A DNA stretch of 64,000 bases, from NCBI GenBank assembly GCA_963971405.1, contig OZ020492.1, forward strand, positions 21,730,204 through 21,794,203, in the 5' to 3' direction. Source of the DNA: Psococerastis gibbosa. Taxonomy: Eukaryota; Arthropoda; Insecta; Psocodea; Psocidae. Made by a program: the position numbers and the translations under genes. Of the stretch, positions 607-55,994 are shown piece after piece. The first letter of the stretch is position 1. Each line of letters opens with the position of its first letter. A model generated the notes under the pieces. That model ran no database searches, had not been told where the DNA came from, and saw nothing but the letters and a program-made list of their open reading frames with translations.

Positions 607-611
607 CATGT

Positions 612-868
612 TGTTGGGTTATGCCTTGGATCGGTTTTAAATTTATAGATAAAAAAATATCACACTTTGAATTAATATTGTGTATTCGCCATCTTTGTAG
701 CAAGGAAGTAAAAAAAACATTGTAAACTCTAAACAGTGTCACAGACAATGTCATAGACAAACAAAAATATTATTAAATTAATATTTATTTTCATTATTAT
801 TATTTTTAATTTTATTATTATTTTATTATGAAATAGCAAAAATTATAATTTAAAAAATTATTTCAACA
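612..868 (-). repeat. 3' LTR of the copia element
   Basis: This is the downstream LTR in element orientation. It is 257 bp and matches 4988-5244 throughout. It is very AT-rich; on the element strand it carries an AATAAA polyadenylation-type motif and a TATAAATT-type sequence near its 3' part. The short terminal inverted repeat is TGTTG/CAACA. Confidence 0.95.
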
Positions 869-878
869 TCCTCCCCTT
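869..878 (-). promoter_or_regulatory. Polypurine tract of the copia element
   Basis: On the element strand the bases AAGGGGAGGA lie directly against the 3' LTR. This is the position and composition expected for the primer of plus-strand DNA synthesis. Confidence 0.8.
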
Positions 879-961
879 AATTTTTGCATGAATAATTAAA
901 TTCCAAACTTTTAGTAAAATAAAATAAAATTCCTTCATTATATAGAAATACAATAAAAAGT

Positions 962-3900
962 TTAATCAACAAGCATTTTTCTAAACTTTTCAAATGAAGA
1001 ATTAGGTAGAGCTTTTGTAAAAATATCTGCTGCTTGTTCACTACTTGGAACATGTTTTACTTCTACTACCTTGTTCTTTACTAGATCAGTAATAAATTTA
1101 TATCTTACATCTATGTGCTTTGTTCGTTTTCCACAACCAGTTTTCATTACTTCAATTGTACTAGTATTATCAACAAATAGTAAGATTTCCAATTTTTCAC
1201 CAGTTAATTCCTGGATTAAAGATTTCAAAAACAAACACATTTTTAGACATTCTGCAGCTGCTATATATTCAGCTTCAGTAGTGGAAAGTGTTACAATATT
1301 TTGTTTCTTTGAACACCAAGCTACAGGTCCGCCACAATAGTAAATCACGAAACCTGTGGTACTTTTCCGAGATATTTCATCATCTGCGTAACTTGCATCT
1401 GAATATGCAATTAGTTTATTACAATTTGAACCATTATACGTTATTCCTAAATTCTTTGTACCTTTTAAATATCTTAAAGTTCTTTTTACATCGGAAACAT
1501 TATCAGTTTTAGGTTCAATACAACGACTTTCATAATTCACACTGAAAGTTATATCTGGTCGTGTTTTAGTAGAACAATATAAGAGACTACCGACTGCTTC
1601 GCGGTATGGAAAGGATATATTTTTACTGTTATCTGACTTTTGATTACATATTGGAGTTTTAACAGAATTTGCTTCCGACATATTATAAGTTTTAAGCATG
1701 TTTTCAACATATTTCTCCTGGCTAATTTTTATACCAGCTTTAGTTCTCAAAATTTCAATACCTACATATTTCTTTATGTCTTTGTTATAGGTAACTTCGC
1801 AAAGTTTGCTTAGCTTTTTTACAAAATCATTCAACATCAATTCATTTTTACTTATTATTAATCCATCATCAACATGAATTGAAATTATCAAGCTTTTATC
1901 AGTATTACAATAAATACAAGGATCTGATTTTAATCTCTGTAAACCAATCGATAATAAATAATCATTCAACTTAGAATTCCACAATGCTGGAGATTGTTTA
2001 AGTCCGTACAATGACTTTTTTAATAGACATACTTTGTCTTTGTTTTTAGCGTTTTTAAATCCTTCCGGAATATGCATAAAAATTTTCTCATTAAGATCGC
2101 TATTTAAAAATGCAGATTTTATATCAAATGAAGCAATTAGCATTTTTTTCTTTGCTGCTAAAGCAAATAACAATCGTAAACTATTTGAATCTACCACTGG
2201 ACTAAATATATCGGTAAAATCTATGCCATTTTCTTGTTCGAAACCTCTTACAACGAGTCTGGCTTTAAAAGTATTATTATCTTTTTTGCGAAAAATCCAG
2301 CGAGAAGTCAAAATCTTATTATTTTCAGCTTCTGCTTTTGGAATATAAATCCAAGTTTTATTAGAAATCAACGATTCTTTCTCCTTCTCTACAGCATCTA
2401 CCCATTCTTTACATTCATTGCCTTTTACGGCTTCTTCAAACGTTAAATATACGCTATCATCAAATAGATCAGTTAAATTAGTTTCACAATCATCAAGTGT
2501 AGCAGGTTTCCGTAGATTAATTCTACTTCTTAATTTATAAGGGTATTCCTTTGGAGTTTCAGGTTCTGATTCAGACTCACCGTCAGCATCATTTTCACTG
2601 ATTATTTCCTCCACAGATTCATTGACTCTTCGTGGGCTCACTTGGTGCTTGTCTGATTCAGACTCTGAATCCTTGAAAAATTCTGAAACATTAAAATCAA
2701 GTTTTACCATTTCTTCAGGTTTTAGCTTATTTTTAATTTTAAGTGAGTTTTCAGGAAAAATAACATCCCTAGAAATAACAATCTTTTTAATGTTTGGGTC
2801 AAACAAACGATAACCATTATGATTATAACCAACGAATATCAATTTTCTTGATCTTTCATCAAGCTTCTTAACACGAGGTAGAATTTTAGCATAAGCTTCA
2901 GAACCAAAAATTTTTAAATTTTTTAAATCTGGTCTTTTTCCAGTCCAATTTTCTATAGGCGTTGCCTTGCTATTAACTGTTGGACTGCGATTAAGTAAAA
3001 AACAACTTGTCTTAGCCGCTTCACTCCATAAATTTTTATTAACATTACTATCAAAGAGTAAACTTCTTATTTTTTCAGTAATTGTCCGATTTAATCTTTC
3101 TGAACGAGGGTTCATTTGAGGACTATAACTAGCAGTTACATCAAAAAATATTCCTCTATTATAAAACCATTGTTTTAATGGCAGGTATTCACCTCCACCG
3201 TCACATTTAAATCTGCATACTTTTAAACCTTTTTCATTTTCGGCTCGCAAAATAAAATTTTTTATAACATTTGCTGCGTCTGATTTTGCTTTTATAGGAT
3301 GTACTTCACTATAACACGTAAAATCATCAATTATTGATACATAATATTTGCATTGATCAATAGATTCAATTTCAAAGGGACCTTCGACGTCACTATGAAT
3401 TATTTCGAGCATTCGAGTAGCACGCTTTAAATTTCCACTAAAGGGATCACGAGCATGTCGAGCTTTAATACAAATTTCACAATTTTTAATATCTAAAGAA
3501 TTTTTAGTTATTTTTATTCCATCTGACATTGTTGCAAGTCTTTGCAAATTTTTAAAACTAATATGACCTAATTTTCTATGCCATTCATAAATGTCGTCAT
3601 AATCATTCACAGAAAAAACATTTTCTCTATTTTTTAAATTTTGGTTTTTACCATATTTTAAATTAACAACGAACAAACCGTTATTTTCTTTACCTTCCAT
3701 GACAGTTTCGAATTTTGAATTAATAATTTCTACGTTTCCTTTTGAAAATAATACAAACCCACCTTTATCGGTGATTTTTTTAACAGAAAGAAGATTTTGA
3801 GATAACTCCGGTACGTAAACTACATTGTTTAATGTCACACTCTGACTCTTTAATGTTCCTATGGCCGTTCCAAATAAGGATTCATTCCTTTTTGCTAAAC

Positions 3901-4858
3901 TGAATTTTGATATTGCAGGATTACTATTCTCAAGACAATTTAAATTATTAACTAAATGTTTACTTGCTGCACTATCGACAGCTAAGCTAATACTTTTATT
4001 ATTATTAAAGTAATTGGAATTTTTAGATACCAAAAAAACTTTATTATTATTGCTGTCACCATTTTCTCTATTTCTGTTACGGAAAAAACACTCTGAGGAT
4101 CGGTGCGAATTCCTCTTTTTACAAATTCCGCAATAAAGCGTATTTCTTTCATCTCTAGCTTTTTTAAAACATTTTTCAATCCTATGATTTCTTAATTTGC
4201 AATACGTACAGAAAAGTTCATTTTTATTTTTAAAATTAGAATTAGATAGAGTACTTTTACCTTGGGCTAGTGTTTTGAATGCTACTGAGTTGTTTCCACA
4301 TCGTTCGTCCTCTAATTGAAGGCGAGAAAAAAGATTGGCAAGCGTCTTATCTTTTGCAGTGACTGACTCCCAAGCACTTCTGAAGGCGTTGAATTTTTCG
4401 GGAAGAGAAGATACAATCTTTGTTACAACCATCTCGTCTGTTAACTTTTCTCCCAATGAAGCTAGTCTATGGATAATTATTTTTATTTCAGCAATTCCCT
4501 TGTTGACATCTTCCAATTTAAAGTTGTAAAAATCCGTTAGAAGAGAACATTTTTGTTGATGAGTGTCCTTATTGTAGAGATCATTTAATGCTTTATACAT
4601 TTCGGCTGATGTTGTACATGTTAGTAAATGCACAATTTGGCTGCTATCCACTGAGGTTACAATTAGTCGTTGAGCTTTTATGTCAGTTTTTATCCACGAT
4701 GTATCATCTTTTTTATCCTTGGTAAGGATACTTGGTAAAGGTTCCGTTCCGGTTGCAATGTCGTACGCATATATCGATTTTAAGATGACATCTATTTGAA
4801 ATTTCCACGTGAGGTAGTTTGGACCATTTAATTTTTCAATTTTTACGTCTTCGGGCAT
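962..4858 (-). CDS. Copia Gag-Pol polyprotein
   Basis: A 1298-residue polyprotein in one frame from ATG to TAA-type stop. Domains in order: Gag core of the UBN2/copia type (residues ~1-200); a CCHC zinc knuckle CTYCKLRNHRIEKC (~217-230) and a second, irregular one CGICKKRNSHRSSEC with one extra residue before His (~243-257); aspartic protease with active-site segment DSAAS (~295), where DSGAS/T is usual; GAG-pre-integrase HHCC zinc binding (WHRKLGH...CEIC, ~425-462); integrase core with D (HSDVEG, ~489), D (KCDGGGEY, ~553) and E (NPRSERLNRT, ~588); copia reverse transcriptase with KSLYGLKQSPALW and HVDD in place of the usual YVDD; RNase H with SDASYADD, STTEAEY, VDN and RTKHIDVRY at the C-terminus. 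All catalytic acids are present. The Gly-to-Ala change in the protease loop and His for Tyr at the polymerase site are unusual and could lower activity. No second frame or shift site is seen, so Gag excess would need splicing or proteolysis. Confidence 0.96.
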   Translation of the reverse strand: MPEDVKIEKLNGPNYLTWKFQIDVILKSIYAYDIATGTEPLPSILTKDKKDDTSWIKTDIKAQRLIVTSVDSSQIVHLLTCTTSAEMYKALNDLYNKDTHQQKCSLLTDFYNFKLEDVNKGIAEIKIIIHRLASLGEKLTDEMVVTKIVSSLPEKFNAFRSAWESVTAKDKTLANLFSRLQLEDERCGNNSVAFKTLAQGKSTLSNSNFKNKNELFCTYCKLRNHRIEKCFKKARDERNTLYCGICKKRNSHRSSECFFRNRNRENGDSNNNKVFLVSKNSNYFNNNKSISLAVDSAASKHLVNNLNCLENSNPAISKFSLAKRNESLFGTAIGTLKSQSVTLNNVVYVPELSQNLLSVKKITDKGGFVLFSKGNVEIINSKFETVMEGKENNGLFVVNLKYGKNQNLKNRENVFSVNDYDDIYEWHRKLGHISFKNLQRLATMSDGIKITKNSLDIKNCEICIKARHARDPFSGNLKRATRMLEIIHSDVEGPFEIESIDQCKYYVSIIDDFTCYSEVHPIKAKSDAANVIKNFILRAENEKGLKVCRFKCDGGGEYLPLKQWFYNRGIFFDVTASYSPQMNPRSERLNRTITEKIRSLLFDSNVNKNLWSEAAKTSCFLLNRSPTVNSKATPIENWTGKRPDLKNLKIFGSEAYAKILPRVKKLDERSRKLIFVGYNHNGYRLFDPNIKKIVISRDVIFPENSLKIKNKLKPEEMVKLDFNVSEFFKDSESESDKHQVSPRRVNESVEEIISENDADGESESEPETPKEYPYKLRSRINLRKPATLDDCETNLTDLFDDSVYLTFEEAVKGNECKEWVDAVEKEKESLISNKTWIYIPKAEAENNKILTSRWIFRKKDNNTFKARLVVRGFEQENGIDFTDIFSPVVDSNSLRLLFALAAKKKMLIASFDIKSAFLNSDLNEKIFMHIPEGFKNAKNKDKVCLLKKSLYGLKQSPALWNSKLNDYLLSIGLQRLKSDPCIYCNTDKSLIISIHVDDGLIISKNELMLNDFVKKLSKLCEVTYNKDIKKYVGIEILRTKAGIKISQEKYVENMLKTYNMSEANSVKTPICNQKSDNSKNISFPYREAVGSLLYCSTKTRPDITFSVNYESRCIEPKTDNVSDVKRTLRYLKGTKNLGITYNGSNCNKLIAYSDASYADDEISRKSTTGFVIYYCGGPVAWCSKKQNIVTLSTTEAEYIAAAECLKMCLFLKSLIQELTGEKLEILLFVDNTSTIEVMKTGCGKRTKHIDVRYKFITDLVKNKVVEVKHVPSSEQAADIFTKALPNSSFEKFRKMLVD

Positions 4859-4973
4859 GGTGTACTGGTAAGATTAGGTTACACAAGCACTTTGCACACG
4901 CGACAATTTTAATTATTATTTTTAATTTTTCTTTTTAATTGATTTTACGGAACATCTTGGTTTCCCGATTTAT

Positions 4974-4987
4974 CTGGGCCCATAACC
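4974..4987 (-). promoter_or_regulatory. Primer binding site, internal part of initiator Met-tRNA
   Basis: The plus strand reads CTGGGCCCATAACC directly against the 5' LTR. This equals the anticodon-stem and loop region of eukaryotic initiator methionine tRNA, so the element RNA is complementary to the inside of that tRNA rather than its 3' end. Priming from a cleaved half-tRNA is the known habit of Drosophila copia, and this arrangement supports the same mechanism here. Confidence 0.9.
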
Positions 4988-5244
4988 TGTTGGGTTATGC
5001 CTTGGATCGGTTTTAAATTTATAGATAAAAAAATATCACACTTTGAATTAATATTGTGTATTCGCCATCTTTGTAGCAAGGAAGTAAAAAAAACATTGTA
5101 AACTCTAAACAGTGTCACAGACAATGTCATAGACAAACAAAAATATTATTAAATTAATATTTATTTTCATTATTATTATTTTTAATTTTATTATTATTTT
5201 ATTATGAAATAGCAAAAATTATAATTTAAAAAATTATTTCAACA
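4988..5244 (-). repeat. 5' LTR of the copia element
   Basis: This is the upstream LTR in element orientation, identical to 612-868. It should hold the element promoter; a TATAAATT-like sequence lies about 35-45 bases before its inner end on the element strand. Confidence 0.95.
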
Positions 5245-5249
5245 CATGT

Positions 5250-13418: not shown

Positions 13419-13491
13419 TGGGCTTAGCGGGACTCGAACCCACGTTCTACGCCTAACCGGGGCGTCGTCTCAACCGCTCGACCACAAGCCC
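13419..13491 (-). tRNA. tRNA-like unit, left arm (anticodon loop CCGGTTA)
   Basis: The minus strand folds as a full cloverleaf of 73 bases: acceptor stem GGGCTTG/TAAGCCC with A discriminator, a D arm containing GAGCGGTTGA, anticodon stem ACGCC/GGCGT, a 5-base variable region and T arm GTGGG-TTCGAGT-CCCGC. The loop CCGGTTA would place GGT (Thr) as anticodon, but the universal U at position 33 is C. With its place in a fold-back repeat this suggests a tRNA-derived sequence rather than a working gene. Confidence 0.45.
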
Positions 13492-13761: not shown

Positions 13762-13834
13762 GGGCTTGTGGTTGAGCGGATAAGACGACGCCCCGGCTAG
13801 GCGTAGATCGTGGGTTCAAGTCCCGCCAAGCCCA
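13762..13834 (+). tRNA. tRNA-like unit, right arm (anticodon loop CCGGCTA)
   Basis: The plus strand forms a cloverleaf with a perfect 7-bp acceptor stem (GGGCTTG/CAAGCCC), anticodon stem ACGCC/GGCGT and T arm GTGGG-TTCAAGT-CCCGC. The loop CCGGCTA would give GGC (Ala), again with C at position 33. It differs from the left-arm unit at several bases, mostly keeping the stems paired. It may be transcribed through its internal A and B boxes, but decoding function is doubtful. Confidence 0.45.
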
Positions 13835-13944: not shown

Positions 13945-14326
13945 TTAAGAGTGAACAGCCCGTTGGAAAGTGGCAGCCCGAAATTTAATACTTTTTATTT
14001 TCTATTTAAGCATGTTATTAAAGATTTGGCTCATCAAATTTGTAGAAGACTACTTCATGCATCATATAATAAGGTTTTTTTAGTTTTCGAAATTGTAGTT
14101 TTTTTATAAACTCGTTAATACGTGAAAAGTTATTGTTTATAAAATATTTGCATGTTTCTGAAAAAACTACAATTTCGAAAATTAAAAATATCATAACTTA
14201 TAATATGATGCATGAAGTAATCTTCTACAACTTTGATGAACCAAATCTTTAATAACATGCTTAGTTAATGAAATATAAAATATGAAATTTCGGGCTGCCA
14301 ATTTCCTACGGGCTGTACACTCTTAA
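13945..14326. mobile_element. Family E MITE, complete, TTAA-flanked palindrome
   Basis: A 382-bp element bounded by TTAA on both sides. Left end GAGTGAACAGCCCGT, right end (inverted) GAGTGTACAGCCCGT. The arms remain inverted copies for most of the length (including AAGCATGTTATTAAAGATTT near both ends and TGATGCATGAAGTA inside), so a single strand could fold into a hairpin of about 180 bp. No coding capacity. TTAA target use is known for piggyBac, Kolobok and some Sola elements. The ends match those of the gene-bearing element at 24534-30771. Confidence 0.85.
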
Positions 14327-20339: not shown

Positions 20340-22957
20340 GGGTGATGATTGGAGTTTTTTCGTAATTTTTTTTAACAATGTCCTGAATAAATTGAGTTAT
20401 GGGGGGTATGTCGGCGAGCTCTCGGTACATAAGTTGGTTTGATAGATAGGGGGGGGGGGGGGGGATGTGATGAAGAATGCTCTATTTCGTGCCGTTTGAA
20501 CTTCCTTAAGTACTGCCTTGGAGGCACCGCCCCAGATGGCTGGGGCGTAGGTTATGGCTGGTCTAACCACTGCTTTGTACAGTGTTAGGCCATTTGCACG
20601 GTATATATGTGCCTTTCGGGTTAGAAGTGGTTTGAGGTTGTTAAGGACCATGGAAGCTTTCCGTTTGGCATTGGTAACATGGGTTTTAAATCTGAGCCGT
20701 TGATCGAGATGTACCCCTAGGTACTTAACAGTTGTCTTCCACGGAATCGGCTGGTGGTTAAGTGTTGGTGGAGTGACATGGCTCGTGGGGTTATAAGTTC
20801 TGCTAAAGATTATTGCTTCTGATTTCGTGATATTTATTTTTACGCGCCAGAGTGTGCACCATTGATTTATGTTCTCCAGGGTGGTGTTTAGGCGATTGAC
20901 TATTGTGGTTCTATTTTTAGCCGATGTGTATAGTATGGTGTCGTCGGCATAAATGCCGACCGTAATCGGCGGAGCAGTGGGAAGGTCATTGATATAGATA
21001 TTAAAAAGTGTGGGGCCTAGGATGCTTCCCTGAGGAACGCCTGCAGCTATGGAGTGTCGGGGAGAAGAGATGCCGTTGAGGTCAACGAAGATGTGTCGAT
21101 CGCGTAGGTAAGAGGAGAGAATGGTGATTATCGTAGGAGAAATGCCATTTAGCCGAAGCTTAAAGAGAAGGCCCTCAGTCCAGACGGAGTCAAAGGCCTT
21201 TTCAATATCAAGGAGCACCGCGCCTGTGCTTTCCCGATGACCCCATCTGGCGGTGACATGCTCTGTAAGCCGCAGTATCTGATGCTGCGTATTGTGTTGC
21301 TTGCGAAATCCGAATTGTTCTCATCGGATAACCTCGCGGCGTTCTATCTCATCATTGAGGCGATAGGAGATGAGTCTTTCCAGTAGCTTCCTCAGCGTAG
21401 GAAGTAGACTAATAGGCCTATAGCTGGTAGGGAGGGTTAGGTCTTTACCCTGTTTGGGGAACATCAGAACTTTAGCGGTTTTCCAGGATTGTGGGAAGTA
21501 GCCTAAGTATAGGCATGCGTTGAAAAGGGTGGTGAGTTTGTGGATCTGATTATCTGGGATGAGCTTAATGATGCCATTAGTGATACCATCTGGTCCTGGG
21601 GCTTTGCCATTTTTGAGGGTTTTTATGACAGTTTGGATTTCTTGATCTGTGATATTGTCGACATTTGGGTCTTGTAGGAGGTCCTCAAGTTCTGCTTGGT
21701 TTACAGCAGTTGTGACTTCCGCTGTGAACGCGGGATTTTGGGGGTTATGATGCGGTTGCAGTGTATTGGCGACTGAGGTGGCTCGTGCCTCAGCCTTGTC
21801 GGATGGTGTGTAATACGTAATGACGCCTTTGGAGTCCTTGAGGGGAGGTATGTTGATATGCTTTGTTGTGAGCTTTTTAGTTTTGTGCCACAAGCTCTTG
21901 TCACCAGGTTGTAGTTTGGCGAGGTTGTGGATGGTGGTAGCTGTGGTGTATATTTTTATTTTGTTGGCGATGAGGCGTTGAAGGGTATTTATTTCTTTTT
22001 TGGTTGAAGTGTTAGGGGCTTTAGAATAGGCATTTCGAAGTCAATTTCGTTGTTTATGAGGTCTACGATGTATTTAGGGAGTGGGCGGTCGACTTTGTTT
22101 CCTCTTCCTACTCTTGATTTCCGGATCTCGGCTTTTTCGTAGGCCTGCACTATATGGGTTGTAAGTTGTCTGATTGCGATGTCGATGTCATTTGACGTGT
22201 TATACGTGTCAGGAAGGGATTGTAGGGATTGTATCGCTAGTTGAAAAGCCTTGGGGTCTAGTCGAGTGTGGCTGAAGCGCTGGGGGTTAGTTGTTGCAGC
22301 TGCTGTATAGATGACAATTTCAACAGGGTAATGGTCAGATGATAATCCTTGTATTGTGTGTATGTCTAGTTGGTGTTGAAGGTTTTTAGTTATGGCAATG
22401 TCGAGGATGTTTGGTACCTGCGTGTGCACCGGGACTCGCGTATAAGAATCAGGAGCGTGTATCGCGAGTTGGGAGTCCCGATCTATAAAGTTGATTAGTC
22501 TTTTGCCCCGGGGGCAGTTTGTACGAGCACCCCAGATGGTGTGTGGTGCGTTTAGATCTCCAGCCAGGATGACCTTGTCCGCAGTAGCAAGAAGAGTGCC
22601 CATCAGCTCTTTGCCTAGGAAGGGGAAGGCAGGGGAGTGGTATGCTGCTATAACGGCCGTTCGCTGGCCGCCTAATGATATCATTACTCCAGTGGCTTCA
22701 AGGTTGCCAGAAGTGAGTGGCAGTTGGTGATGATTTATGTTGCTGCGTATGACTATGGCTGTGCCCTGTCCACAGTCATTGACATAGGAAGTATAGCCAG
22801 GAAGATTAATGTAGTTGGTATTGATTTCATTAAGAAGCATAATGTCTACTTGATGTGTTAAGAGAAAGTGTTGGAGCTCAGGGATCTTGTGACGGACACC
22901 CTGAGCATTCCATGTGACAATTTTAAGCGAAGTGGCTGATTTATCTATAGAATTCAT
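20340..22957 (-). pseudogene. LINE ORF2: endonuclease and reverse transcriptase (broken)
   Basis: Starts with ATG at 22957. The endonuclease domain follows (VTWNAQGVRHKIPEL, LLNEINT, GDLNAPHTIWG, then the SSDHYPVEI catalytic end) down to about 22310. The frame then shifts near 22040. Reverse transcriptase follows: LKNGKAPGPDGITN and SYRPISLLPTLRKLLERL (21321-21893), an in-frame TGA just before the EQFGFR-type segment at about 21320, then LDIEKAFDSVW, GVPQGSILGPTLFNIYIND and YADDTILY with intact catalytic YADD (20397-21218). A shift in a 14-15 base G run at about 20450-20464 separates the last part, ELADIPPITQFIQ. Domain order and the short C-terminal helix fit Jockey. Beyond about 20340 the frame merely runs into the 3' UTR. 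Confidence 0.88.
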
Positions 22958-22977
22958 GTTTATTTGGTGAACGTGAT

Positions 22978-23683
22978 TTAAAGTGCAGCTACTGTCATAT
23001 CTGCGATTAGTCCGTTAATTTTCGTGAAAGCCTCTTCAAAAGAGTATTTTCGTTGTAGTATATCAGTTGTAAGTTCTGTTGCATTTTGTAAGATGCTGAT
23101 GAGGAATGTCTGGGCCAGGTCCATTTGTGCGGAAGATGGGGGGTTGTTTGGTTTGTGCATAATACGATGGGGGGGGGGGGGGCTGTGACGAGTTAGTGGT
23201 TGGTAGGCGGCTGGGTGTCATATGATCAGGGCTGGGGGGCCTCTGCTGTTCATGTTGAGATTGCTGATTGTCAGAGTGGTTTTGTTTAGTTTGTTTAGTT
23301 GGGATCGAGGCGAATGTAGCTGGTGAGGCATAGAGTACCTCTCTTGCCCATGGTGCTGTGTGCGTGGGTCTACTTAACGGAGTGAGAGGGGGAAATTGAT
23401 CTGGCGTGAGTTTGGGATTACTGGGTCGGGATTTTTGGAGCAGATGTGGGTTTTTAAGCAGTCCTCTCTTGTGTAGAATGTTGATGTGCGTGTTTCCGGC
23501 TACTTGGTACTGTGGGCATCCTCTGAAGTTTGCTGCATGTCGTCCTTGGCAGTTTGCACGGCAGAGTTTGTCAAGGTCTAAATTTTTTGTTGAGCAGTCT
23601 TTTGTGAGATGGGGCTGGGCGCACTTTAGGCAACGCGGGTCGCCGGACCATCTCTTCTGTGCTTCCTGCTTCCTTATATTCAT
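22978..23683 (-). pseudogene. LINE ORF1 (Gag-like), C-terminal part, frameshifted
   Basis: Holds two Jockey-type zinc knuckles: CLKCAQPHLTKDC (CX2CX3HX4C) and CRANCQGRHAANFRGC. A Pro/Ser/Gln-rich linker follows, and then a last segment in another frame (22978-23160: MDLAQTFLISILQNATEL). The two frames join at a 12-base G run (23169-23182). The first knuckle and the domain before it are not present upstream. The protein would bind the LINE RNA in the normal life cycle. Confidence 0.8.
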
Positions 23684-23697
23684 CTGATTATAATATA

Positions 23698-24533
23698 ATT
23701 ATCTAAAAACAACTTCTCTTAAGCAGCCTAGCTCTTAGGCTAGTGCCTTGAACATAAACATTATATCATTATAAACATTATAAACTTTATTTTATTAATT
23801 AATTTTGACATTTTTATAAATATAAACTCCGTCTAGACTTTACACTATCTGCCTTCCACCTTTATCTTAGTGTGTGTGAAGCAGTGCGCCCAATAGTGTG
23901 CCCCCCCCCCCCGCCACTCCTTCTGGATTACAAGACATCAAACTCCACTGGAAATGGATACACACACCCACCTACAAGTAGTACCTAAGTCTACTAACGT
24001 AGTACACCTGGATCCGCCGAAACTACAAACTCATTCTTCCTGCGCTAGGAACTGTTTCGCCTATTTAGCTACTAGCTATAAAACATAGCCCAGTGAGGAC
24101 TCTCGTGTAATATAAACCTCTAGCTCGGTTAGGCCCGTACAATTAGCAAATGTCATAGTTAGATCACTGCTACTTTGATGGATAGACCCCCTAAGTACTC
24201 CAATCTCCACCAACGGTTTTAAGAGTGAACAGCCCGTAGAAAATTTTGGCAATTCCATATTTGGTACCACAGAGCAAAAAGAGAATAATTTTTTAGAATA
24301 GTTCAATTTTTGTCAAGTTGTCAACACACATTGGGAGATCCTTGAGGGTCGGCAGCAGGTATACGAGCGAAGGGTGTGAGTGATGACTCATCATCTGATA
24401 TATTTACGACCCTCTATGCCTCAATAACAGCCGAGTTCCTATATTCCTTCATCCAGCCAAAAAGCAGTGGCGTGCCGTATCTTCCAGGCCGCAGTTATAG
24501 CAGTGGCGTCTCCTTACATTTTGTATTCTTTAT
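23698..24533. other. Unassigned DNA with one family E end
   Basis: AT-rich DNA. A C10 run lies at 23903-23912. At 24219-24250 a lone family E end occurs (TTAA then GAGTGAACAGCCCGTAGAAAA) without a matching partner nearby, probably a MITE remnant. Confidence 0.5.
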
Positions 24534-24645
24534 GAGAATACAAGCCGTAGAATGGTGTTTTGACATATGTATAAACACATGTGAAGCATGTTCCAATAAA
24601 ATTATGATTTATGATTGCATTAAATGTCTACCATAATTAAAAAGG
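24534..24645 (+). repeat. Left terminal inverted repeat of the transposon
   Basis: Starts GAGAATACAAGCCGTAGAAT. Inverted partner at 30660-30771. The first 31 bases are highly similar; further in, AAGCATGTT and TGTCTACCATAATTA keep the register with the right end. Confidence 0.75.
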
Positions 24646-24745
24646 CAATGATATGGGATGTAAATAAATGTATTGACTTACAATTTTGATATGTACAGTC
24701 ACGTATGAGAAAAAGTTTTTGCTTTCCTGTTTGTTCGTAATATAT

Positions 24746-25230
24746 ACAGGGTGTTCCAGACCACCCGGACACCCCCTATATCTCGGTTATTACGAGGAAT
24801 TTTGAAATGCGGTAAAAATCTACGATAACAAAGTCAAGATTGAACTACCTTATGGTGCAATCAAATGTTTTTTTCGGGGAGTCCGAAAGGGGAGTTTCAG
24901 GGGGTCATAGGTGGTATCTCGGAATTTTCAAATGCAAAGGTATAACGTATTGCATATCAAATGAAAGCCCTGTGAGGGATATCCTTTTCATCCAGAACCC
25001 TTAGGACTCTTTTAAGGAGTATAGCCTCAAAGAATTGGCGCATTGTGGCCCCATTGTTTTTTAATCTACTCAGTGAGTCTAATAATCTGCTGTTGTGTGC
25101 TACAGCCTTTCCGGATACCAAAAGGTTCTGGACGCAGGATATCCTTTTCATCCAGAACCTTGAGGACTCTTTTAAGGATTATAGCCCCCCCCCCCCTCAA
25201 AAATTTGGGAATTTACATCAATCCCGGGAA
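24746..25230. repeat. Repeat starting ACAGGGTGTTCCAGA with an internal duplication
   Basis: The start (TATACAGGGTGTTCCAGACC) resembles ends of dispersed invertebrate repeats whose class I cannot name. A segment with GATATCCTTTTCATCCAGAA occurs twice, at about 24978 and 25138, with a spacing near 160 bases. A C10 run at 25187-25196 follows. No coding frame. Confidence 0.45.
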
Positions 25231-25252
25231 ATAGCAGAGCTCAAAGCAGGCA

Positions 25253-26167
25253 TTAACAGTGTACAGCCCTTAGGGAAATTGCAAATTAAATTTAACATTT
25301 TATTTATTATTTAATTAACTAAGCAAGTTCATAAAGATTTGGCCCACTTAAGTTCTAGAAGATTACTTCATGCATCGTATAATAAAGTATTTTTAATTTT
25401 TGAAGTTCTAGTTTTTTCATAAACACGATAATAATTTATACTCGGTAATTTATAATACGCAATGCGTTTCACCGTGAATTTTCTATCATTTAAAAAAAAA
25501 AACCTTTTTTCCACAAAACCAAATAGATTTTTGCGAAAGCAACCTGCTCGGTTTCGTTACTCAATTAAACACATAATTCATGCCTGAAGGTAGAAATCAT
25601 CGATAGAAAGGTTTCGCAGAGAAATTATTTTTTAGTCATTTTTCATTCAAATTTAGTTATTTTTATTTTTTAACCCCCAGACAGAAACTATCAAGGGGCA
25701 AGCGACCCCCCCCCCCATATTGTAAACATTAATGGCGACTGAAATATACTGTATGTGAATTTAGAAGAAATCGTTGGAGCCGTATTTGAGAAATAAATTG
25801 TTAGACGTTTTTTTGGAGATTTTTGAAAATAACCCCCCCCCAAATTGAGTAAGCCCCATTTAAAAAAAATTGTCTCGAGGTATGATTTTTGTAAACCTAC
25901 ATAGCCTACCAAATATCATCAAAATCGGCCGAGTAGTTTGCCCGGAAATCGATGAACAGACAGACAGACAGAGCTACAGACAGTCATTTCGTAAAAAGAT
26001 TTTTTTTGGTTCCTGAGACCTCAAAACGTGTAAATCCGTTGAAATCTCAAAAACGAAAATTTCGACCATCACAAAGCTTTCCTTATACTAGGCTACGTAT
26101 AAATTGGAAAGCAATAAAAGGTACTAAATATCGGGCTGCCAATTTCCTACGGGCTGTTAATTCTAAA
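25253..26167. mobile_element. Family E MITE interrupted by a HINE-like repeat
   Basis: Left end TTAACAGTGTACAGCCC with the family body to about 25445 (AAGATTTGGCCCACTT, TTCATGCATCGTATAATAAA). The right end (GGGCTGCCAATTTCCTACGG, then GGGCTGTTAATTC) is at 26131-26167. Between them sits a minus-strand HINE-like piece, so the HINE-like element entered the MITE. Both lie inside the larger transposon, just downstream of the stop codon of its gene. Confidence 0.75.
25459..26112 (-). mobile_element. HINE-like repeat, copy 3 (3' part missing)
   Basis: Begins within the family body near the GTGAATTTTCTATCA segment. It includes the inverted microsatellite (CAGACAGACAGACAGAG) at about 25957 and ends with the 5' palindrome (GCTTTCCTTATACTA...TAAATTGGAAAGC). 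The 3' hairpin end and its C-run are absent. Confidence 0.8.
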
Positions 26168-26221
26168 AGACCGCCGTTATGGCAAAGAGAGGGAAGGACT
26201 GAGACTGGGCGAGCACTAATT

Positions 26222-29200
26222 CTAAAAAACACTTAGAAAGGCCTGTCTGATGTCGTTAGTCCGCTCTGCAAGGGTGTACCGTGGTGAAACAATTTCGCAT
26301 AATAAGGCTTCCTTGTAAAACCTCTCGAGTTTTGGCACCATGACTGAACGCCAAAGACTCTGGTCCCTGGTAACTTCAATGACCTCTTGCCAATGAGGCG
26401 TGTATATGAAAAGGTAGCACTTATTCACCTTCAAAATGTTCAGCTGCCCCTGTATCTGGTAGTGCCAGTAACTTTTTGGTTTAAGCTGGACGACACCTTT
26501 TTCGCCAAGTTTCAACATTGCAGTCTTCTTCTGCCTGACAGCATCTGCCAGCGACGTCGTCTCAGCTTTTGTGGCTGCCCACAAACATTTTATCTCCAGT
26601 AGAGCATCCTCTCCACAAACTAATCCGTCGGGCGAATCAGCGAGAAAGGGATACGTGGGATCAACAAAGTGACCACATTTTTTCACTTTCTTGCCGTTTT
26701 TGCAGCAAAATATTTCCCGGGCCAAATCCTCGTTCGTTTTCCCAAACTTTACGGCTTGAGTCCGTGAAATATCACTGTACAGGATCGACTTCACAGTGTT
26801 TCGGGTTGAGGTCGTTGGCCTTAAGCACATCACTTTACCAAAATTTGAAGCAGTGAGGCGTTTCACCCTTTCCACCATCCAATCTTCCGAAAGGTCTTGA
26901 CCCATTGTCCTCAACTGTAATTCTTCCGGATCAACAGAACTCAACTCTTCTAGGAAACGCTCTTTACTCTGACGCAACTGCGATTCTGGGATATCTGGAA
27001 TATCCTCAACGTCCCCGTAATCTTCATCTGGACCCGCTTCTTCTTTCCACTGAGTCGGTTTGCTTCTTTTAAACAGTTCTCGCCGTCGCCTGTTATGTTC
27101 CGTTCTTAATTTTGCCCGTGAAACGTATCCCTTCGTTCTACTCCCTGGGGTTCGAATGTTACAAATACGCCGTGCGACATCTGCTAAAAAGGCACCCTCG
27201 TTAAATTGAAGACATGCGGCTTCCATTCTCATGTTGTAACTTCCGCGAGCACCATAAAAAATTCTCTTGCCACCAATTAATTTATTTGCTAGGCTATTGA
27301 GTTGTTCGCATAGATTGCTTTCAACATCAAGCAAGAGTGAATCAGCATGGTGTGCGACCCTGGTCATCAATCTTATCAAATCATCAGCTAGGCCAGATTT
27401 TGTCATCACATTGTACAAGCTGGACTCATTTACGCCTTTCTCTTTGCAATAGTACTCCAGGCAATCATGATGAAGACCAAGTATGTGTTTAGGGGCATTT
27501 AAAATGTCCTTGTGCAATCCCTCACAACGAATTGATGAAAGGCCAGCTGCATTTTTCCAATGCTTAATCGCGCCTCTCACAGCCTGGCGAAAGCGGAAAA
27601 CGTTGGATGCTAAGGCTTTTCGCTCTGCTATGGGGAACTTAGTCGCCTTCAAAAACCCACGCAAGTGGCCGTCCATATTTCTGAGTAAATGGTTGCGGCA
27701 TTCCACTTTTTTTATTGCAACGGTAAATCCGTACGGCTGTGCCCCTAATAGACGCTTCATAACACTTGAATCCCCATCACCAATGAGCCTCGTGTAAGCA
27801 ATGCCTTGCGTCTGTATGCTCCGCCGAAATCCCTCAACAATTATATCAGCTTCCATGGCAGTTGAGGAACGTTTCCAGTTCCTAAAGCATTTGTGGGGCG
27901 CCTTCTTCCCCGTTTTTTTTTTCTCTACAACACAAGGAGCAGAACTTATTACGCGTGCCCACAAAAACAACTTTCCTTGTCCTGTACCCAATAATTGACG
28001 CCATCCCCGACAACGAATTATATTTCGTCTTATATGACCTCTTAGCCCACATTCCATCAGCCACAACTGTAATAAAAGGAGTGCCATCTGGCAAGACGTC
28101 TCCAGCTTCTAAAGCTAACTGTTTTTCTTCAGCCGCAGCTGCAGCCATGGACTGAGAAAGGCTAGCTCCAATTCGCTCGGACACTTTCAGTCCCTCTTTC
28201 ATAAATTTTCTCTCACTCATGAAAGGGATGTTCAACGCAGCAAAAATTGGTTCAGCGGCTGCAAAGCCCACACCACCAGATATCACGCCGTTCACCAAAT
28301 TACCTTCGATGTTTTCATCGTTAGGCTGAAGGGCGTATTTTCTAGTGGAGTTGCACATGCGGCATTGAAATAGCAACTGCACCGTCATTATGCTGTGCTT
28401 TTTTATGGGCACCTCCCTTATGAAGTCCATGTCAGCAATAGTGCACATGAATGGTTTGTGCACGTCATTTTTTAATTGGGTGAAGAGGTGAGCCAAGTTA
28501 ACAATCCTGTTGCCTGGTAAAGTACCAGTTGGCAAAATTGTGTTGGGTTCATCGGCCCCGATGGACTGATTGCCAACAGTCTCATTAACTGGGTCCTCTT
28601 CCTCCATAAGAAATGGGCTGGGCTCATCGGCCCCAATGGATTGATTGCTAATGACTGTCTCATCAGCTGGGCCCTCTTCCTCCATAGCAATTGGGCCAGC
28701 AAGATTAAGGCTGTCAGATACGTCGTCTGGCGTGGATGTTAAAATAACACCTTCTCTTTTAAGATAATTATCAACCCTACAAAAAAGTATTAGACATAAA
28801 TATAACAGCAGTGAATATTGTATAAGCTTACACCATGGTTTGATTATACTCTACTGTTCATGCAATCACAATTGGGGATACACATTGTATATATTGTAGT
28901 TATTTTTTCGTCTCCGAGGTAGAGACTCAGTTTCTGGGCCCAGTGCTCTGCCAATCAGACGCAATGGTCGGTGCTGACCCAAAGGTCGTTGAACTGTTTA
29001 AGTCGTTGGTCTCTTTTCGGTGGTGGAAGGATTAGCCGCTAGATATTTCCACTTTGCATTGCCTGGGGTACGCCCGATCGTAATATAATAATAAGACTCG
29101 TAAATGTAGTGACGAACAACACTTAGTCTACATGTTTCAATTTCACTATATTTACTGCTCAAATGCAAATGCTAATTTCAGAGTAAGGCACTATATACCC

Positions 29201-30183
29201 GGGTATTGTCATCCGCCATGTTGTATCCTAATTCCTATATGGTAAGTATTGTAAGAAAAGTAAGAGGTTGAGAAATATTGAAAAAACTAATACACGTTTT
29301 AGTATTTTTTTATTAAACACTTCCCTAATTGGTAGCACGTTTTTTTAAATAATAATAAATAAACAACGATAAATTTCTAAAAATAAATAGGTAAACACCC
29401 AATGCTTGGCTTATACACCAGACTTATAATGAATATAATGTGGCGGATGACAATACCTGTCTAATATAGAGCCCTATTTCAGAGAAAACAATTCGAAATT
29501 TGTAACTCTGTAACAATCACTTCTTTCTCTCTGGATAAAAAAATTGAATGAATTTTTAAAACACTAAATTCATCAGAATCAGTCTGGAAGTAGGTTTTTC
29601 CCCCAAACAAAGCTTGTGACCAGGTAACCAAGGCACAAAGTCTCCCAAGATTGATACATGTATGTTTATAAATGATATGGCGGCTATTCCACTTGCCGAT
29701 ATTCCCTCATTTATGCATCAATAATAAGTCTCTACCATATTATAACTTAATTTATAATAGATAAGTTAAGTATCTACATTATCAATCAATCAAAATTTAT
29801 TTCCAAAATAAATTTTTTTACAGTTTTTTGTCACTAGTCTCATTCAAAGAAAAATCGCATCAATTATTGATGCACAAATGTGGGAATATTGACAAATGCA
29901 ATAGCCGCCTATGCCCATGGTTGCTCCTGACTGGTTACAATTAAAATGAGGTCCCCACATACAAATCTCACTTAGAACGAAAGATCACTATCCTCTTTAA
30001 ATTGGCTGTCGATCTATCTAGACATAAATAGCAATTACAGATACGTACTACATTTCTTATAACAACATGTACTAACCGTTCCATTTCCTTTTTTTTATGG
30101 GGTGCTACGCCTTTAAACCCTTTCCGATATGCTCGCGTCCGTCTATTTTTTTCATATTCCTTCTGGCCTTTAAATTTACCCAT
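26222..30183 (-). CDS. Mutator-like transposase fused to YqaJ-type nuclease, two exons
   Basis: Exon 1 is 30183-30077 (ATG, 35 codons plus two bases, basic: MGKFKGQKEYEKNRRTRAYR) and ends at donor GTTAGT. Exon 2 is 28776-26222, after acceptor TTTTTTGTAG. The join in phase 2 forms an Arg codon, giving about 886 residues. Order: basic N-terminus; acidic stretch with a tandem ~23-residue duplication (both copies contain NQSIGADEP, 28545-28685); a CRMC cysteine pair; Mutator-like domain with VVADGMWAKRSY, RNKFCSLC, HKCFRNW and IGDGDSSV followed by ECRNHLLRN; a basic linker (RRRRELFKRSKPTQ); and a YqaJ/lambda-exonuclease-like PD-(D/E)xK domain with RVKRLTASNFGKV, FLADSPDGLV, ALLEIKC and HYQIQGQLNI. 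One base too many in an A10 run (27922-27931 on the plus strand reads T10) shifts the frame between the two longest ORFs. The protein should cut and move the surrounding element; the nuclease may trim ends or donor DNA. That role is inference. Confidence 0.85.
29202..29457. mobile_element. Small MITE in the intron (GGTATTGTCATCCGCCA ends)
   Basis: Perfect 17-base terminal inverted repeats GGTATTGTCATCCGCCA at 29202-29218 and 29441-29457, enclosing about 220 AT-rich bases. No coding capacity. Confidence 0.75.
29679..29910. mobile_element. Second fold-back MITE in the intron
   Basis: Inverted arms of about 47 bases (29679-29725 and 29863-29910). Outer ends are GGCGGCTATTCCACTTG and AAATGCAATAGCCGCC; inner ends are TGCATCAATAAT and ATTATTGATGCA. 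About 140 AT-rich bases lie between. Confidence 0.75.
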
Positions 30184-30659
30184 TCTCAGTACGCCAAGAA
30201 AACAATGGACAAAATCATAAAATATGAAATAATGCGAGAGTTAACAAATTACTTTGTTTACAAGCTCTGAACGCAATGCTAACAACGTAACAGAACAAAA
30301 CCAAAACTGCGACATATAAATCAGTGCGACATCTTCTGGAAATTACCTACAACATTGTTCACGTCGATTGTGCTTGGTTTCACAACAGATTAGCTTTCTG
30401 TTCTCAGCCATCTTATTTGAAATGTAAACAGATAATATAAATAATTTATTTATTATGCTATTAATGGAAATTAGTAAAATGTGATTCATTAATTTCTTAG
30501 ATATTGTAATTTAGTTGCCTTAAATATATGTTGTAGTGCCACATTACCAACGGTAAGATCTCAAATTCCCTGTTCTGTTTTATTTTTTAGCCTTTTTTAA
30601 CAATTTTTTTCTCCGTAGTGACTAAATATATCAAAATTGTAAATCGTTAATATTATACC

Positions 30660-30771
30660 CCACATCTTTACCTTTGTTATCATGGTAGATATGTAATAAA
30701 GGCATTAATTAAACATGCTTAAAAGGCCCTATTGCTTTAGGTCCAAACACCATTCTACGGCCTGTACACTC
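30660..30771 (-). repeat. Right terminal inverted repeat of the transposon
   Basis: Read from the outside (minus strand) it begins GAGTGTACAGGCCGTAGAAT. TTAA follows on the plus strand at 30772-30775. It pairs with 24534-24645. Confidence 0.75.
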
Positions 30772-31074
30772 TTAAACTTCAGAACGTTCTAGAAACTGCC
30801 CAGGATTGCACAGGATTGGCTCAGTAAGTCATTACTATCCGGTTAAAGGCAGAAATCAACCAATAAGCACCCTACACTGACTCGTATGTCTCTCCATCTG
30901 TGTATGCACGCTACCAAATTATTTATGTCTGCACTAGTCGGTTATTAACTTATATTAGCGAACTACAGTAACTTAGCCTGCCAACAACATCTGCCTAGTG
31001 TATTCAACTATGTGTCTTAACATTAGTTAACAGTCCTTGTCTTAATTATATAGTACTCAGTATTTTCCCTTAAT

Positions 31075-48525: not shown

Positions 48526-49410
48526 CCTAAGAGACTGATAATACTAGTAGTGTAAATATATTGATAAAGTATGGTCAATGGAGTATTCGAACCCTCCACG
48601 TTTAACTTTGCTAAATTTAAATTTTTGTTGTTGTCATGTTTTTCGTTAGATGTGTTTCATTTGTGCATTGTATTGTTCTATTCCATTGATCAATATAGTT
48701 TAATCTGATTCTGAATCTGGTGAGAACCGTAAGGATAGTTGCCGCGGATAAGTTACATAAAAATTGTAGCAACAAAGAGACTTAAACCAGACGCGGCTTT
48801 GTTATGTGCCCAAGCTTTTAAAACATATTACTTATTCATGGTTTCAAGCTATTACACCGAAAAGAAGTGGCTATAAATGGGCCATTTTATAACGTGAAAC
48901 CTCTTTTCAGAATTATAGCGCTTTAATGGAGTAAAATTAGGGCGTGATACGGAGTAGGGTTTTCAGCCCCAGGAACCCAGTTCACAAGCCCAATACTGCC
49001 TCCAGATTGACGGATACCTAATGAACGTACGAACTCTAGAACACGGGAAATCCTAGGCATTTGTTCTCTGATTTGATTTTGACTATTTTTTTTGTAAATT
49101 ACTTTACTGTTGTTCAATAAAATATTCATGCATTTACATTATTGGCGGAGGTGCGAGCACGAGTCCCGCCCAAGTTTGTTTTTCTTACATTGACTTCTCC
49201 CACTCGTAGGGGGTTACCTCCTGTTTTAATACTGTATATACTAGAATAATGTATACAAGCTGCAGTGATAACCCATTAGGTTTTTAAAAACAACCTACTT
49301 TAAGCAATTGTACACTTTTTAGGTGATGCGGCCTGACGCTGGGTTCACCAGCCCCTAGCTAGTTAGAGGTCGTACTCAGCTCTCATTATGATTGCTAGTG
49401 ATGTGTTTTT
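48526..49410. other. Unassigned DNA
   Basis: No gene recognised. Short frames only. Confidence 0.35.
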
Positions 49411-50129
49411 GCTTTCCAATTTATACGTAGTATAAGGAAAGCTTTGTGACGGTCGAAATTTTCGATTCCGAGATTTCAACGGATTTACACGTTTTAAGGT
49501 CCCGGGAACCCAAAAAAGTGGTTTTTACGAAATGACTGTCTGTTTGTCGTTCTGTCTGTCCGTCAATTTCCGGGCAAACTACGCGGTCGATTTTGATGAG
49601 ATTCGGCATGTAGGTTCACAAAAATCATACCTCGGAACAATTTTTTTTTTATTTGGGGCTAACTTAATTTGGGGGGGTTTTATTCTCAAAAAAACTCCAA
49701 AAAAACGTCTAAAAAAATTATTTCTCAAAAACGGCTCCAACGATTTCTTTTAAATTCACATATATTGTAGGCGTTATTAATGTTAACGAAATGCGGGGGG
49801 TCGCTTGCCCCTTCATAGGTTGCTTCTGGGGGTAAAAAAATAAAAATAACTAAATTTTAATGAACAATTACTAAAAAATAATTTTTCTGGGAAACCTTTT
49901 TATCGATGATTTCTACCTTCAGGTATGTTTTAGGTCTTAAATTCAGTAACGAAACCGGACAGGTTGCTTTCCCAGACAAGTATTTTGTTTTGTGCAAAAA
50001 AATGTTTTTTTGAGAAAATGATAGAAAATTCACGCTCATGAGCATTGCGTGCCCTGTAAGTATTGCTGTGTGGTAATGTGTTGGTCTGACCTAACTAGAA
50101 TTTACCTCACCTCCAGTGACGTCAGGTGG
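49411..50129 (+). mobile_element. HINE-like repeat, copy 8 (3' end lost)
   Basis: Well-preserved from GCTTTCCAATTTATACGTAG to GTGACGTCAGGTGG. It stops exactly where the C-run would begin and is followed by an 18-bp minisatellite. The G run after TTAATTTG is short (7). Confidence 0.85.
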
Positions 50130-50847: not shown

Positions 50848-51116
50848 TATATGGAAGTATATTGTCAAATGTGATCACAAGAGAAATATATTGTCAGTCA
50901 AAATCAATTCATGAATTCATGTATAGTATAGTATGATTTCTCAATAAGAAAAGTTTTTAGATATTTTAGAAACTCTTTCTTGTTTTTCTCTCTTAGTGTG
51001 GCCCGTTTTCAGGAATTATTATTATTGTTTCCGAATTAATTTTAGATTGGGGTCATAGGGTTGATCAGGGCATAGACAGATATACAATTTTATGGTGGAG
51101 GCGCAGTAGACCTTAT
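50848..51116. other. Unassigned DNA
   Basis: Nothing recognised in this gap. Confidence 0.3.
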
Positions 51117-51971
51117 TGGTTTCCAATTTATACGTAGTATAAGGAAAGCTTTGTGATGGTCGAAATTTTCGATTCCGAGATTTCAACGGATTTACACGTT
51201 TTGAGGTCCCAGGAACCCAAAAAAGTGGTTTTTACAAAATGTCTGTCTGTCGGTCGGTCTGTCGGTCTGTCTGTTCGTCGATTTCCGGGCAAACTACTCA
51301 GTGGATTTGAGTGAAATTTGGCATGTCCGTTCACAAAAATCATACCTCGGGACCATTTTTTTTTGGGCTAACTCAATTTGGGGGGGTTTTATTTTCAAAA
51401 GACTCCAAAAAAACGTCTAAAAAAATTATTTCTCAAAAACGGCTCCAACGATTTCTTTTAAATTCTCGTAGATTGTAGTCGTTATTAATTTTGACAAAAT
51501 GCAGGGGGTCGCTTGCCCCTTGATAGTTTGCTTCTGGGGGTAAAAAAATAAAAATAACTAAATTTTAATGAAAAAATGACTAAAAAATGCGAAACCTTTC
51601 TATCGATGATTTCTACCTTCAAGCATGTTTTAGGTGTTAAATTGAGTAACGAAACCGGATAGGTTGCTTTCCCAAAAAAAATATTTGGTTTTACCCAAAA
51701 AATTATTTTTTGAAAAAAATGATAGAAAATTCGCGCTCAAATGCATTGCATGCCCTGCCATTATTGCTGTGTGGTAATTAATGTGTTTGTTTGACCTATC
51801 GAGAATTTACCTCACTTCCAGTGACGTCAGGTGGACAACCCCCCCCCCCCCCCTGAGATATCGGAAATTTAACCATAGGAAACATATTTGCCATAAAATT
51901 ACTAATTTTCTCTATCGAATAATTTTGATAAATTGGAAAGCATGTTCGAGTGAACTCGGACCGGTTCTTTT
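51117..51971 (+). mobile_element. HINE-like repeat, copy 9 (full length)
   Basis: Complete from the 5' palindrome (first GC changed to GG) to GGACCGGTTCTTTTA. The microsatellite is GTCTGTCTGTCGGTCGGTCT-like at 51240-51275. A C run of 14-15 lies at 51838-51853. Confidence 0.85.
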
Positions 51972-55774: not shown

Positions 55775-55994
55775 GGAACATGCAAATATTTTATAAACAA
55801 TAACTTTTCACGTATTAACGATTTTATAAAAAAAACTACAATTTCGAAAACTAAAAATACATTATTATATGATGCATGAAGTAGTTTTCTACAACTTTGC
55901 TGAGCCAAATCTTTAATAACATGCTTAGATAATGAAATAAAATAAAAAAGTATCAATTTTGGGCTGCCAATTTCCTACGGCTGTACACTCTTAA
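55775..55994. mobile_element. Family E MITE, right half
   Basis: Matches the right arm of the 13945-14326 element from its centre (AGGAACATGCAAATATTTTA) to the end (GGGCTGCCAATTTCCTACGG, then CTGTACACTC and TTAA). The left half is missing, replaced by HINE-like copy 10, which joins at the centre of the palindrome. Confidence 0.8.

Follow-up and report, generated by a model that had tools for sequence, protein, structure and literature searches.

At positions 24534-30771 of the window, by which we mean the whole 64-kb stretch of DNA that was analysed, lies a degraded transposon copy whose gene is read from the minus strand. The features of this copy, together with those of a complete MITE in the same window, are as follows.

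13949-14322, no strand assigned: complete MITE of 374 bp, with TTAA at both sides and an end motif in common with the large element
24530-24533, no strand assigned: left target site TTAT, with one mismatch against TTAA
24534-30771, gene on minus strand: probable KolobokE-type DNA transposon copy, decayed, 6,238 bp, recognised by its terminal inverted repeats, end motif and Pfam domains
24534-24714, plus strand: left terminal inverted repeat, strong over the first 31 bp, then patchy
25257-26163, plus strand: nested insertion of MITE type whose ends are related to those of the element; carries a 660-bp repeat
26222-27934, minus strand: second frame of exon 2, with PF20700 positions 198-357 (HxC, GDGDSS, CRNH, CEQLNS), then a YqaJ/lambda-exonuclease-type nuclease
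26441-26884, minus strand: YqaJ PD-(D/E)xK nuclease domain, with the active-site pattern SPDGL..EIK and YQIQ
27885-28776, minus strand: first frame of exon 2; a spacer containing a 78-bp tandem repeat precedes PF20700 positions 1-208
27900-27934, minus strand: frameshift zone, in which both frames overlap inside one profile match
28777-30076, minus strand: probable GT-AG intron with two MITE-like inverted repeats
29202-29457, no strand assigned: intronic MITE-like inverted repeat, arms of 25 nt at 88%
29679-29909, no strand assigned: intronic MITE-like inverted repeat, arms of 47 nt at 87%
30077-30183, minus strand: probable exon 1, judged from frame and splice signals; starts MGKFKGQKEYEKNRR, basic, with a GT donor next to it
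30606-30771, minus strand: right terminal inverted repeat
30772-30775, no strand assigned: right target site TTAA

The transposase part of the gene is split between two reading frames. Pfam family PF20700 ('Mutator-like transposase'; model length 357 positions) matches with its positions 1-208 in the minus-strand frame 27885-28847 (E 3.3e-39) and with positions 198-357 in the minus-strand frame 26225-28108 (E 6.4e-35), where YqaJ (PF09588, E 2e-12) follows it in one reading frame; the order of domains given in an earlier, sequence-only reading of this DNA, a Mutator-like domain and then YqaJ, is confirmed by these matches. Because the two PF20700 pieces share 11 model positions, within 35 bp of DNA (27900-27934), no DNA is missing between them and an intron at this point is ruled out: the break is a frameshift. 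Ten consecutive A lie in the frameshift zone (27913-27922, read on the minus strand), and exon 2 has no other stop in either of its two frames. A separate small first exon is likely from the splice signals, the AG acceptor ending at 28777 joining exon 1 (30183-30077) in frame with the first transposase piece; no Pfam family was matched within this probable exon. The two-exon gene that had been proposed may refer to this small exon 1, but the interruption of the transposase domain is not an intron. A scan for bacterial promoters, which has no relevance to a transposon gene, found 4, against 3.3 in shuffles.

Across the two frames the catalytic patterns VVADGMW, GDGDSS, CRNH and CEQLNS occur in this order, giving a DDE arrangement with C/DxxH between the second D and the E; CEQLNS, picked by its pattern, is what we take to contain the last catalytic E. 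In exon 2, the first frame carries VVADGMW, with the first catalytic D, and after it the CxxC half of a CCHC zinc finger, whose two parts stand on either side of the frameshift (CSLC in the first frame, HKC in the second). A stretch rich in C and H, CEGLHKD...HHDCLEYYC, fits a zinc finger between CxxH and the last E by eye only. The three protein pieces scanned gave no THAP match at E up to 0.1, and there was no NCBIfam match to the first frame.

The nuclease domain matches the phage RecE-like phrog_434 (E 4.2e-15), phrog_149 (E 2.9e-12) and, more weakly and overlapping the PF09588 match, the viral alkaline exonuclease family PF01771 (E 2.1e-4). TIGR03033 gave E 5e-16 but 59.2 bits, under the model cut-off of 68.05. 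The sole match to a solved structure at E up to 1 was the exonuclease 3syy (E 1.3e-05), with SPDGLV and EIKC kept, and 10 of 50,697 phage records matched the nuclease at 25-34% identity. A predicted structure of the nuclease domain alone had a mean pLDDT of 34.5, too low to use.

At the tips of the element, the terminal inverted repeats 24534-24564 and 30741-30771 pair at 27 of 31 bases, exactly as had been read from the letters; widening the match to 24529-24567 / 30738-30776 pairs 33 of 39 bases, and beyond the tips a weaker inverted match reaches about 170-187 bp (68%, BLAST E 1.7e-11). For comparison, 200-bp stretches drawn at random from the 64-kb window were aligned as 5000 opposite-strand pairs. 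Seven of these 5000 scored at least 123, the score observed for the terminal repeats; they form three clusters at other places in the window, and two of the clusters link inverted copies of the 660-bp repeat. The target sites, TTAA at the right end and TTAT at the left, were also correctly given before; they make the target duplication imperfect in what is probably a KolobokE-type copy. If the boundary is set at TTAA, the termini are GAG...CTC, and GA...TC is consistent with an RR..YY rule. When the boundary was slid over 441 combinations, no good direct repeat of 8-11 bp was found around the element ends, the best being 6/8, 6/9, 7/10 and 7/11.

The proposal of a 6.2-kb transposon holds for the unit of 6,238 bp but not for its whole length as the element's own, which is overstated by that figure because repeats are nested inside 24534-30771; the same nested repeats make the copy look old. 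The 660-bp repeat within the nested MITE-type insertion (25457-26117) belongs to a set of eight long copies in the 64 kb, the others being 77-83% identical to it. Further copies of this repeat include 49406-50050 and 51113-51749. Neither of the MITE-like inverted repeats in the intron has a second copy within the window.

Ends related to those of the element occur elsewhere in the same stretch. The end motif GAGTGTACAGSCCGTAG, which was derived from ends already seen and does not have TTAA in its own letters, has 7 matches in the window when up to 3 mismatches are allowed (100 shuffles gave 0.05 on average), and the bases just outside them are TTAA in 5/7, TTAT in 1/7 (the element's left end) and TTTA in 1/7. 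The binomial value for five of seven ends at TTAA, 1.7e-9, is an overstatement, since the two ends of a single insertion are not independent. An eighth end at 55990, which has a deletion and adjoins TTAA, came from a loose scan (up to 4 edits) whose pattern included TTAA, and hence it provides no test. Of the 12 matches from that scan, 6 run on as the end motif and were kept; the six judged unrelated by eye are at 730, 5106, 36703, 40579, 62201 (+) and 58998 (-).

The eight ends derive from about five insertions, with at least one TTAA at each. Both ends are seen for three of the insertions, of which one is flanked by TTAA/TTAA and the other two show a single mismatch at one of their sides. 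The insertion with TTAA/TTAA is the 374-bp MITE at 13949-14322, which has inverted arms of 56 nt at 89%, TTAA included; another of the three is the one nested in the large element. Related ends beside TTAA support the element's TTAA boundary. With seven such ends, five of them at TTAA, they also strengthen the earlier claim that the fusion gene sits inside a mobile element that has defined ends and prefers TTAA. That the MITEs share the end motif suggests that they are non-autonomous partners of the large element; for the GAGTGTACAG MITEs, the outer 17 bp are nearly the same as in the element (0-3 mismatches), and by this likeness it is plausible that they are its passengers. Two tRNA genes lie close to the 374-bp MITE, at 13419-13491 and 13762-13834. 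A lone end-motif match flanked by TTAA is found at 24223, 311 bp to the left of the element, with no partner end evident among the seven matches.

What kind of element this is can be judged by setting its features against published descriptions. Kojima and Bao (2022; PMC9587614) describe KolobokE as a combination of transposase and nuclease with TTAA targets and 5'-RR..YY-3' ends, its DDE transposase having C/DxxH between the second D and the E. A CCHC zinc finger after the first D is described for Kolobok lineages, and a zinc finger between CxxH and the last E is a further KolobokE feature. Most of the KolobokE features that can be checked are found in the fusion gene and its surroundings, the less clear ones being the element's own TTAA duplication, which is imperfect, and the second zinc finger, which fits by eye only. 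By these features we consider it probable, at roughly 0.88, that 24534-30771 represents a KolobokE-type DNA transposon in decayed form, differing from KolobokE as described in its frameshift, its nested repeats and its mismatched left target site. That no THAP domain was found in the pieces scanned counts against placement in Kolobok; according to PMC6004289, Kolobok transposases 'usually' carry this domain, a usual and not a defining feature, and it is not named for KolobokE in the portions of PMC9587614 consulted. The link between fusion gene, ends and target preference, which had been put forward as the main novelty, had already been named KolobokE by 2022 in that paper. Among the matches listed, no other report of a Mutator/Kolobok-YqaJ fusion was recognised.

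The Pfam name of the transposase family, 'Mutator-like transposase', would suit a classic Mutator (MuDR/MULE) element to which TTAA happens to adjoin by chance. The target site duplication of Mutator elements is 8-11 bp. The flanking repeats found here are poor over that range and the related ends of the window adjoin TTAA in five of seven, so that a Mutator element is very unlikely, the more so as a CCHC finger that follows the first D is described for Kolobok lineages. A YqaJ-domain protein is encoded by most autonomous candidates of ISL2EU, in the PHIS superfamily (PMC4482050), and an ISL2EU element with a second ORF encoding the YqaJ exonuclease would likewise be a DDE transposon carrying such an enzyme. 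However, ISL2EU is described in that paper with the nuclease on a separate ORF, a THAP domain and an AT target duplication, whereas here the nuclease follows PF20700 in one frame, THAP was not found in the pieces scanned and the flanks are TTAA/TTAT; we regard this assignment as extremely improbable.

Both domains keep their catalytic patterns, as might be expected if a transposon of this kind had been domesticated into a host gene, but the gene is bounded by matching inverted ends and has a frameshift within its catalytic domain, and domestication seems highly unlikely. A further alternative concerns the state of the copy and not its family: the frameshift may be a homopolymer sequencing error, in which case the coding region of this KolobokE copy would still be whole. 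The run of 10 A in the frameshift zone, and an exon 2 otherwise without stops in the two frames, speak for such an error, but the copy bears signs of age in its left target mismatch, its differing end repeats and its three nested repeats, and on balance we find an artefact rather unlikely, if conceivable.

For a KolobokE-type transposon in its intact form, one protein would join a DDE transposase to a lambda-exonuclease-type nuclease. From the chemistry of the known superfamily, the DDE transposase would bind the terminal inverted repeats and move the element into TTAA sites. Lambda-exonuclease-type enzymes act on 5' ends, and for this reason the predicted role of the nuclease is most likely the processing of 5' DNA ends, either of the element or at the donor site. 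Within the reaction it could serve donor-site resection, end trimming or second-strand cutting. We think it unlikely that the fused nuclease, instead of being an accessory for repair, is itself part of the cut, cleaving or trimming the non-transferred 5' strands as the DDE domain handles the 3' strands. Under such a cutting scheme the fusion of nuclease and DDE domain would be a one-protein analogue of the division of labour in the bacterial TnsA-TnsB system.

The KolobokE type is already known, and the gain here is a modest one, namely MITE ends that carry the element's terminal motif within the same 64 kb. These small relatives help to fix the start and end of the element, and a candidate autonomous/non-autonomous pair with firmer boundaries offers a way to test the part played by a lambda-exonuclease-type domain within a DDE transposase. 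The Xenopus T2-MITE / Kolobok system (PMC6004289) provides a parallel, in that its TTAA-flanked MITEs are thought to be moved by Kolobok transposases, but it differs in its end motif, AGGRR, and in the usual presence of THAP, and no nuclease is mentioned in the passages of that report consulted.

With the 628-aa second frame as query, relatives were found at 0 loci in viral_contigs (0/9 pattern stretches confirmed) and 0 loci in genome_contigs (0/28 confirmed), and exact matches to the end motif numbered 0 in each; neither a second copy of the gene nor an empty site turned up. These viral and microbial collections are poor places for an animal transposon, and the repeats of the window give the impression of an animal host, probably an arthropod. 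Other mobile elements are present in the window. A LINE-like element occupies 20397-23014, its endonuclease and reverse transcriptase spread over several frames. A copia-type retrotransposon at 607-5249 has an unbroken frame of 1303 aa (RVT_2, gag), a pair of long terminal repeats, each of 257 bp and identical to the other (612-868 and 4988-5244), and the 5-bp direct repeat CATGT at both sides, and looks like a very recent insertion.
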